This document shows positions 9,867 to 54,167 of a DNA stretch of 57,962 nt, piece by piece; the first letter of the stretch is position 1; every line of letters begins with the position of its first letter. The position numbers were made by a program, and so were the translations under genes. The notes beneath the pieces are model-generated. The model was not told the origin of the DNA. It saw only the letters and a list, made by a program, of their open reading frames with translations, and made no database searches. Source of the DNA: Clostridia bacterium (GTDB lineage Bacteria > Bacillota > Clostridia > Oscillospirales > Acutalibacteraceae); contig JAFWYB010000063.1 of assembly GCA_017517865.1 (NCBI GenBank), positions 1-57,962 of the forward strand, in the 5' to 3' direction.

Positions 9867-10077
9867 GCAATGCGCAATTCGCAATGCGCAATCGCGGGGA
9901 ACAGTTCGGTAATGGCAAGGCTCTGCCCGCCAAATTTGTGTTGTCGAAGTGTTTTTTCAAATAAATTCTATTAACTCTTCAAATGTTTAGTAAAACCTAT
10001 CTTACGCAGGTACAATCCAAAAATCATATATACGTTCAGGTGCGACCACAATTGCGAATTGCGAATTGCGCATTGAA
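9867..10077. repeat. GCAATGCGCAA-armed intergenic element, copy A
   Basis: The left arm 9867-9893 is built from GCAATGCGCAATTCGCAA words and the right arm 10051-10075 from their reverse complement (ATTGCGAATTGCGCATTG). The interior starts AATCGCGGGGAACAGTTC, a string that recurs in inverted orientation at 54121-54143. No gene is seen in this 225-bp gap. Confidence 0.7.
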
Positions 10078-25338: not shown

Positions 25339-25518
25339 TCAATTCTGCTTCCTTACAATTTTATATTCATCGTAGGCACTGTAATAATGACAGGAATCCA
25401 TACTGCCCGACATATATTTTTCCATTTCATCCTCGTCAAGATTGACAGAGCAGTAGTATTCGTCATACTCCTCATCGTAGCAATAGTATGAACAGCTTTC
25501 GCACTGCACCGTATTCAT
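25339..25518 (-). CDS. DUF6472 family small protein
   Basis: A 59-residue gene that is easily missed: it starts MNTVQCESCSYYCYDEEYDE and ends EYKIVRKQN. It is very acidic and Tyr-rich with five cysteines, and matches my memory of the clostridial family DUF6472 (CESCxYYxYDEEYDxYxC pattern). GGAGTG lies 8 nt upstream, and a near-perfect promoter lies upstream of that. It precedes the serine dehydratase by 10 bp. The role is unknown; metal or Fe-S handling for the dehydratase is only a guess from position. Confidence 0.82.
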   Translation of the reverse strand: MNTVQCESCSYYCYDEEYDEYYCSVNLDEDEMEKYMSGSMDSCHYYSAYDEYKIVRKQN

Positions 25519-25542
25519 AAGAGCATCACTCCTTTTAATGGT

Positions 25543-25571
25543 ATTATACCCTTTTCCGACGGAATTTTCAA
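25543..25571 (-). promoter_or_regulatory. Promoter of the DUF6472-sdaA operon
   Basis: On the minus strand TTGAAA (25571-25566) and TATAAT (25548-25543) have a 17-bp spacer. Confidence 0.82.
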
Positions 25572-25610
25572 TAGTGTTTGCTCAGCAGATATATCAGAGA
25601 AGTGCGTGAA

Positions 25611-25734
25611 GACGGGGGCGGCTCCCTGAAGCGGAGCGGGCCCTTGGCCGCTCCGCTTCTTTTGCGGAAGCTGCGCTTGCGCAAAAGTCCCGCGGGCGCG
25701 AAAGCGCGCCCGCGGGCAGGGAGCCGCCCCCGTC
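25611..25734. repeat. GC-rich cloverleaf palindrome (candidate structured RNA or mobile palindrome)
   Basis: A perfect 18-bp outer stem (25611-25628 with 25717-25734) encloses three adjacent hairpins. These are 25629-25658 (11-bp stem), 25659-25687 (8 bp plus 4 bp around one mismatch) and 25689-25716 (12-bp stem, loop AAAG). Only one base (25688) is unpaired at the junction. GC content is far above that of the flanks. No coding signature is present. Confidence 0.9.
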
Positions 25735-26323
25735 CTCAACCCTGCGGAAAACCTGCCCCCTTCCCTTAGAGAGAGGTGTCACGCAGTGACGGAGATGAAA
25801 CTTACCGGATACATTATTTCAGCGGTTTACAGCTGCGGGAAAAAGCTGATAAACGGCACACGCGATCATCAGAAAAGGAAGCGCCTGAGCGGTTAGAGCA
25901 AAGAAAGAGCTTTCTTTTCACACGGCATAAAACAAAAAAGCACCCTCACGGGTGCAAAAAGCTTTGTAAAAGGTAAAAACACTCGGGGAGAAACCGAGTG
26001 CTTTTAAAAAGGAGAAAATATGAAGAAAACATTATAGAGGAGTAAGTTAGTTTAAGTCGAGCTCCTAAGAGCTCTGTGTCACTCTCTCAAGTGCAAGGTA
26101 ATAATACAACAAAAAAACGAGAAAATCAATAGTTTTTCTCACATTTTTTCGGTTTCTACCTTTTGGTTAATATATGAAAACTTCAGCTGTATTTTTTGTT
26201 TGGTTTGCACAAACAATTTTAATTGAATTTTTAGTCTGCGTTTACATAAAGTTCATATAACACCGCTTTCAAGCCGTTTATTTTCTCTATCGGACTTAAA
26301 ACTGTGCTTTTGTAATAATTTAT
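25735..26323. other. Non-coding region downstream of the cloverleaf
   Basis: Contains GTGTCACGCAGTGACGGAG (25777-25795) with a GTCACGCAGTGAC palindrome, and a hairpin GCACCC-TCAC-GGGTGC (25940-25955). Then comes AAAAGCACTCGG/CCGAGTG-type pairing (25975-26006), then AAAAAGGAG with ATG at 26020, a five-codon frame (MKKTL, stop at 26037). The rest to 26323 is AT-rich with no gene I can support. Confidence 0.5.
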
Positions 26324-39461: not shown

Positions 39462-39502
39462 AAAATAAAAAAGGACGACACAGTTTCAAATAAACTGAAT
39501 CG
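39462..39502 (-). terminator. Riboswitch-controlled terminator in the pflB leader
   Basis: On the minus strand CGATTCAGTTT pairs with AAACTGTGTCG and is followed by CCTTTTTTTA. Its 5' arm adjoins the 3' conserved strand of the ZTP aptamer, the usual expression platform. Confidence 0.82.
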
Positions 39503-39572
39503 CCCAGACGGTCGGCATTAAAAATTTACATTCCCCTGCGGTTGACCGCTGATCCGTCAGTCATGTAAATTA
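39500..39572 (-). promoter_or_regulatory. ZTP (pfl motif) riboswitch
   Basis: On the minus strand: P1 AATTTACAT/ATGTAAATT enclosing GACTGACGG and GCGGTCAACCGCAGGGGAA, then a short linker and the conserved 3' strand CCGACCGTCTGGGCG. These match the pfl RNA motif, which senses ZMP/ZTP (folate stress) and typically turns on pfl and one-carbon genes by preventing termination. Confidence 0.92.
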
Positions 39573-39579
39573 CGGTTTA

Positions 39580-53943: not shown

Positions 53944-54167
53944 GCAATGCGCAATGCACAATTCGCAATGCGCAATCGCGGGATAGCATTGTAAAAGCTT
54001 TCAGCGTTATTCCGCCGCTTTTATGTAGTTTATACTAAATAAAAAAGTCGTCTGTTTTTCAGACGACTTAATTTTTTTACACAGATTAAGCACACGCTTA
54101 CTTGGCGGGGCAAACCTATATTGATTGAACTGTTCTCCGCGATTGCGCATTGCGAATTGCGCATTGA
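53944..54167. repeat. GCAATGCGCAA-armed intergenic element, copy B
   Basis: Arms 53944-53982 (GCAATGCGCAATGCACAATT and onward) and 54137-54166 (reverse-complement words CGCGATTGCGCATTGCGAAT). Bases 54121-54143 are the reverse complement of the AATCGCGG-GAACAGTTC string of copy A. The interior holds the ppa terminator. It ends 1 bp before the rubredoxin-fusion stop codon. Confidence 0.72.
54044..54080 (+). terminator. Terminator of the pyrophosphatase gene
   Basis: The stem AAGTCGTCT/AGACGACTT with a 7-nt loop and TTTTTTT, inside the repeat element. Confidence 0.88.

Follow-up and report, generated by a model that had tools for sequence, protein, structure and literature searches.

A cloverleaf element upstream of sdaA

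The window, as we call the whole 57,962-nucleotide stretch analysed here, carries a GC-rich palindrome (74% GC vs 44.5% for the window) about 40 bp upstream of promoter-like sequence, judged by eye, of the small ORF that precedes sdaA, in the position and with the composition first described for it. Folding reproduced the architecture proposed in the initial annotation, an 18-bp outer stem (25611–25628 paired with 25717–25734) enclosing three hairpins and a single unpaired base at 25688. The minimum free energy of 25611–25734 is −112 kcal/mol, compared with −65.2 ± 5.0 kcal/mol for shuffled sequences (z = −9.4), and none of 200 shuffles was as stable. The opposite strand, folded as DNA, adopts the same four-way junction (z = −13.1). 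ORFs crossing the element resemble chance frames of GC-rich DNA when judged by eye, in agreement with the earlier view that it encodes nothing recognisable.

While this fold stood, the limits of 25611–25734 did not hold for the repeated unit: other copies place it at 25617–25728 (112 bp, no strand assigned), bounded by the 12-bp outer stem that they share. On the + strand, the 5′ side of this stem, GGCGGCTCCCTG (25617–25628), is identical over all 12 letters throughout the first set of 14 copies and over its first 10 letters in all 19 copies of the final family, and the 3′ side, CAGGGAGCCGCC (25717–25728), has one letter altered in one of the 14 (copy L013). Between them, folding assigns on the same strand arm 1, a 30-nt hairpin of 11 + 2 bp (25629–25658); arm 2, a 29-nt hairpin of 8 + 4 bp, CTTTTGCG...CGCAAAAG (25659–25687); the unpaired junction base, a T (25688); and arm 3, a 28-nt hairpin of 12 bp (25689–25716). 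Outside the unit, the + strand continues the outer stem on the left as a copy-specific extension (25611–25616), which pairs with 25729–25734 and forms part of a purine-rich left flank; the right flank (25729–25738) is pyrimidine-rich by composition. When 14 copies were compared, pairing beyond the unit edges amounted to 6 bp in L001 alone and to 0–3 bp in the others; the extra 6 bp of outer stem in the window copy are largely private to that copy.

A structure scanner that recognises an outer stem around adjacent hairpins picked out the element as the sole such object in the window; it picked out five others in 322 kb of this genome and nothing in 966 kb of sequence shuffled locally. At that setting the scanner was incomplete, missing one copy (L036) within the stretches that it read. 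Rfam gave no gathering-level match on the element, and the eight matches in 25500–25850 all scored far below gathering. Elsewhere in the window, a ZMP/ZTP riboswitch reaches the Rfam gathering level (39495–39574, − strand), and a second palindromic element, whose 30-bp inverted ends consist of AATGC-like units, is present twice, at 9868–10075 and 53952–54166; similar AATGCA-type arrays occur between genes in relatives, for instance at locus L290.

Sequence drift and pairing across 19 copies

The element is not a single structure confined to this locus, for there are 18 further copies elsewhere in the assembly (2.69 Mb in 70 contigs, 95.6% complete). BLAST of the region returned 17 matches that resolve to 14 places. 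A covariance model, built from the nine of these 14 copies that were in register (arm 2 was out of register in the MAFFT alignment of all 14), added four copies. The pattern GGCGGCTCCC-N84–112-GGGAGCCGCC matched 18 times in the assembly, yielding one new copy (L036), and L013, one letter outside the pattern, brings the family to 19. The copy-number check set beforehand thus gave 19 dispersed copies, and because these lie on many contigs, an assembly chimera is unlikely. In every one of the 19, folding gives an outer stem, three arms and zero or one unpaired junction base. The unit spans 110–127 bp, 56 of the 57 arms measure 26–32 nt, and the outer 10 bp are identical throughout save the one letter in L013. 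The family thereby shows three features by which MITEs are recognised: inverted ends, here the 12-bp outer stem, no coding capacity, and dispersed copies.

Between these constant ends lie the arms, each of about 13 bp closed by a short loop, and here the letters drift. Pairwise identity among the first 14 copies is 0.71–0.96, and identity over the three arms across all 19 has a median of 0.68 and a minimum of 0.51. To count pairing, copies were turned to a common orientation (L030–L033 and L036 were placed by reading arm similarity) and nine basal pairs per arm were scored, giving 27 pairs in 19 copies, or 513 cells, which count copies and not events. Standard pairs occupy 498 cells, compared with 336 on average and 358 at most when the 3′ letters were dealt anew in 500 shuffles; eight cells are G-U and 15 are broken. 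Cells changed on both sides number 132 (shuffle mean 30), and at least one such cell occurs in 26 of the 27 basal pairs; compensatory change was one of the tests proposed in the initial annotation.

Since RNAfold chose the structure of each copy, which favours pairing, refolding of chimeric arms is the fairer control. Arms that join the 5′ half of one copy to the 3′ half of another refold at −11.0 kcal/mol, vs −21.9 kcal/mol for real arms, and 3.3% of them reach the stability of the median real arm. After neutral change of 15% in simulation, 78% of pairs survive; the real copies retain a mean of 98%, and never less than 94%, of the pairs that their arm lengths permit. Such near-perfect pairing argues that the fold matters, whether for movement or in place.

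How the pairs changed bears on what maintains them. Relative to the commonest pair, the 131 two-sided Watson-Crick changes comprise 55 flips (XY to YX), with double transitions and all other kinds at 38 each; stepwise change via G-U would favour double transitions. Paired indels in arm 3, seen by eye, set apart L001, L002 and L004, and loops are present in both senses (CGAAAG and CTTTCG). Flips, paired indels and both-sense loops look like the products of template switching at hairpins, a process proposed to create and maintain the hairpins of RNA genes (PMC8794818). Passive palindromes without function, their stems kept perfect by hairpin template switching during replication and by nothing else, would account for these changes, of which flips are the commonest two-sided class. 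This explanation is unlikely, for it leaves unaccounted the near-fixed outer 10 bp, the narrow range of arm sizes and the presence of 19 dispersed copies. Template switching is a likely helper in the upkeep of pairing.

Genomic context and related genomes

We looked for traces of insertion at the edges of the copies. None of the 19 has a direct repeat of at least 3 nt within 2 nt of its edges (0.54 for re-paired flanks); a 2-nt edge repeat occurs in three of the 19, and with 4 nt of slack a 3-nt repeat appears in one of 14 (L003). The flanks share a composition: purines make up 146 of the 190 letters in the 10 nt before the 19 elements and pyrimidines 145 of the 190 in the 10 nt after, and each copy scores 13–18 of 20 on this measure, compared with 10.0 ± 2.6 nearby. 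No fixed letters accompany this bias in the 19 copies, and flank complementarity beyond the stem does not exceed that of re-paired flanks (p about 0.11–0.20 by length; p 0.63 for duplex energy). The bias may be a target preference or the remnant of a longer stem. It is not clear in other species, where element limits were those chosen by the scanner and stem limits are uncertain, and this counts against its generality. BLAST of flanks within the portion of the genome DNA covered gave no pair of filled and empty sites; L001 and L004 have 63 nt of right flank in common, beginning at unequal distances from the element, and in L013 a repeat lies 48 nt away.

Thirty neighbouring ORFs were scanned against Pfam; 26 matched families of varied functions, four had no match, and none was a transposase. 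With gene positions taken from mechanical ORFs of at least 80 aa, a facing gene 3′ end lies within 190 nt of 17 of the 19 copies, eight of the 19 sit between convergent genes, and at L011 a clpC-like gene ends inside the element. Thirteen of the 17 run in the same direction as the nearest facing gene (P 0.05), as do seven of the nine not between convergent genes, which hints at a transcript role or at strand-biased insertion. These observations speak for copies that act as RNA at mRNA 3′ ends, where a stable cloverleaf would block exonucleases or aid termination and each copy would be under selection. The enrichment at 3′ ends is weak, however, with P values of 0.11 and 0.08 against simple expectations of 0.75 (17 of 19) and 0.25 (8 of 19), and two copies, L033 and that of the window, sit between divergent genes. 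Runs of at least four T within 14 nt, on either strand, accompany six of the 19 copies, so that as a set they do not qualify as intrinsic terminators, and GNRA or CUUG loops make up 7/51 in the sense strand and 5/51 in the antisense strand, as counted with L031, L032, L033 and L036 in the other orientation.

Orthologous gaps bear on the same alternative. Downstream of nifU, read in 30 of 34 genomes, our genome carries an element about 22 nt after the stop codon, standing by eye in place of the terminator-like hairpin and T run that are visible in G005 and other relatives; this favours a role at 3′ ends. The corresponding gap of G002 holds another cloverleaf, and a scanner flag in the nifU gap at L297 was an A/T-rich false match. 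The orthologous gaps read are mostly without a cloverleaf, which tells against selection of each copy as RNA, and overall we regard a primary function at mRNA 3′ ends as doubtful.

For the gap upstream of sdaA, 27 of 34 genomes gave a match and 25 loci were read, two weak matches being omitted. Of the 24 other loci, all run through the scanner and 13 also viewed as folds, 22 gave no cloverleaf upstream of sdaA (11 of the 22 negatives were scanned only). The two positives, G175 (by the scanner) and G010 (by viewing of folds, the scanner having missed it), share an outer stem, GGGGAGCCAAGC, in opposite orientations, and belong to a family other than that of the window. With 18 copies beside other genes and no cloverleaf found at sdaA in 22 of 24 relatives, a single regulatory RNA of the DUF6472–sdaA unit was rejected as the main reading. 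In G003 the next gene beyond the sdaA gap is kept and the gap is shorter; gene order beyond the compared gaps is most clearly the same in this genome and may differ in most relatives. In G175, 29 and 15 nt of flank surround an 82-bp element between shared marks that are 46 nt apart in G013, the spacing that a clean insertion would give, in letters too diverged for proof. The SpoIVB–TmcAL gap offered no comparison, SpoIVB adjoining TmcAL in none of 29 relatives read.

Cloverleafs of the same build in other letters occur in seven genomes of the genus (G002, G018, G175, G010, G240, G243 and G004) and in one of another genus (G067), counts that are no frequencies, as the relatives' genomes were read in part and with differing scanner settings. 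G018 and G004 share a family with paired changes, seen by eye, in the outer stem and arm 3, and the cloverleafs of G240 begin with GGCGGCTCC, as the window family does. Three-arm structures numbered none in 329 kb (20 stretches from ten genus genomes) and two in 348 kb (20 stretches from genomes of the family and order), both in G067. The window family itself was not found in 38 relatives searched with the model, in 199 family genomes searched with the pattern or in 149 searched with the model under strict filters (the sets overlap); two weak model matches among the 38 were cloverleafs of other letters. Viral contigs (searched with the 12-letter ends), plasmids and phages gave no match. By eye, the cloverleafs of G002 and G018 (flanks of L304, L034, L035 and L175) are themselves flanked by further hairpins, and their repeated unit may be larger.

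A scan of species genomes with the outer stem returned at least 111 stretches, and most of the 80 matches listed are from Verrucomicrobiota. When 118 outer-stem matches were folded, long paired arms occurred, among the roughly 45 listed, in L036 alone, which belongs to this genome; several others, L041, L045, L055 and L076 among them, have weak three-branch folds and were judged by eye not to be cloverleafs of the window kind. On the contigs of outer-stem matches (786 kb), the scanner gave three three-arm matches at a looser setting and one, weak, at a stricter one. The 10 letters shared with other phyla look coincidental. Verrucomicrobiota loci L037–L116 include many stretches of about 105–120 bp with GGCGGCTCCC/GGGAGCCGCC ends, perhaps another repeat family; those whose folds were listed contain no clean cloverleaf.

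This distribution also weighs on the proposal that the copies are cruciform or four-way-junction sites for a host DNA protein, acting in the nucleoid, in repair or in chromosome segregation, and were spread by selection. In its favour, both strands fold alike. Host proteins that bind DNA junctions are usually conserved, while searches of other genomes did not turn up the family, and the shared direction of 13 of 17 copies with the nearest facing gene is a further objection; we consider this explanation very unlikely.

Proposed mobility and relation to known repeats

No obvious mover accompanies the family. A search for PF01797 (Y1) over the assembly, 95.6% complete, returned one match, at a locus which we take to be IS200-like and near which no cloverleaf lies; no RAYT or TnpA-REP gene was found in the assembly, and no autonomous relative with matching ends in 382 kb of its 2.69 Mb. 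Y1 matches occur in eight of nine cloverleaf genomes and are lacking in G010 (82% complete). A Y1 (IS200/RAYT) transposase as the mover is therefore not supported, the lone Y1 locus being without a cloverleaf and G010 without Y1. G175 encodes a Y1 protein of 255 aa (L342, 1120–1887, − strand), presumably RAYT-like, whose 3.3-kb locus gave no strong hairpin.

The scatter of copies next to unrelated genes, their absence from the orthologous gaps read and the occurrence of families with other letters in relatives together point to a mobile, non-autonomous element, and mobility is supported. Among the possibilities raised in the initial annotation (a structured RNA, a cruciform site or a mobile palindrome), the last is favoured by the copy number and the compensatory changes, and a single dedicated RNA at this locus is unlikely. 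With moderate confidence, we interpret the family as a palindromic element that is MITE-like and non-autonomous, measures about 112 bp and multiplies within the genome of a bacterium which, judged by its genes, resembles Clostridia; the folded form of the element is constrained, and probably recognised, for movement. We envisage that an enzyme acting in trans would recognise the G-rich ends together with either the folded single strand or an extruded four-way junction, and that joining of the folded form would take place between genes, at purine/pyrimidine boundaries, and leave the target unduplicated. Selection for mobility would then keep the fold, with help from template switching at hairpins during replication, a process that can change the two sides of a stem together and invert loops. 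Effects on the ends of neighbouring mRNAs would be secondary.

Several observations count against this mobile reading. Besides the missing mobilising gene, no half-elements or longer version were found in the 382 kb checked of the 2.69 Mb, and target duplications are absent, unlike in most MITEs. The orientation bias (13/17) is a further difficulty, as a symmetric element that acts only as DNA need not show one. Inert old copies should decay, yet all 19 are near-perfectly paired, so each copy could be used in place. More speculatively, and with lower confidence, the element may represent a class of mobile DNA, in a bacterial family, that moves through a folded four-way junction, a look-alike of the Holliday junction, with short fixed ends and arms of almost any sequence that pairs; single species or small species groups would each have their own families, alike in build and mostly unlike in letters, and the mover would be a structure-specific recombinase or a host junction-processing factor.

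We compared the family with known small repeats. REP and REPIN sequences with their RAYTs offer a likeness, being short, intergenic, multi-copy palindromes that fold as single strands, and REPs are regarded as non-autonomous mobile DNA (PMC3116915, PMC8266576). REPs measure 20–50 nt, have a GTAG-type tetranucleotide ahead of the palindrome and undergo processing on a single strand, whereas the units here are 110–127 bp, form a four-way junction and have no tag. The earlier suggestion of a REP/BIME-like element is accordingly not supported, given the missing fixed adjacent tag, the different size and layout, and the failure to find a REP-type tyrosine transposase in the assembly, 95.6% complete. 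Correia/NEMIS, ERIC, RUP, YPAL and CIR elements resemble the family as small units with inverted ends, stable folded transcripts and intergenic dispersal (PMC2229807). Most of these MITE-like repeats are A+T-rich, end in TA, duplicate their target and form long stem-loops. The window family is instead GC-rich and three-armed, lacks duplications, and keeps its fold while the arms drift. YPAL, neither A+T-rich nor ending in TA, comes closest, though its target is duplicated, and CIR has two arms with a linker, unlike the three arms here.

Mitochondrial GC clusters are likewise GC-rich mobile palindromes; they are 42-nt organellar units of yeast with short target repeats, and a section heading of PMC4478555 places GC42 under functional constraint. 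Double-hairpin and sponge hairpin elements are grouped with them here. The ends of IS200/IS605 elements are recognised as folded single strands (PMC8266576), a likeness to the mode of recognition proposed above. The window element differs in carrying no transposase gene, and the IS200-like locus of this genome has no such fold. IS200/IS605 insertion is not known to duplicate the target, a further likeness. The element works like a MITE or a REPIN and is a member of neither by the criteria tested.

Within the open literature searched, no title or opening of an abstract that was listed describes a three-armed bacterial repeat of this sort. Neither "cloverleaf" nor "four-way" occurs in an inverted-repeat survey of 118,019 genomes, and neither "cloverleaf" nor "branched" in a survey of stem-loop families. 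Short palindromic repeats of bacteria are mostly recognised through their conserved sequence. Here, the interior sequence is nearly free, 19 copies maintain the fold, and the same build recurs with other letters in other species, which makes the family a rare test bed for separating selection on the fold (as DNA or RNA), template switching and structure-guided movement. If movement is indeed guided by the four-way junction, this would be a new mode of recognition for a non-autonomous element.
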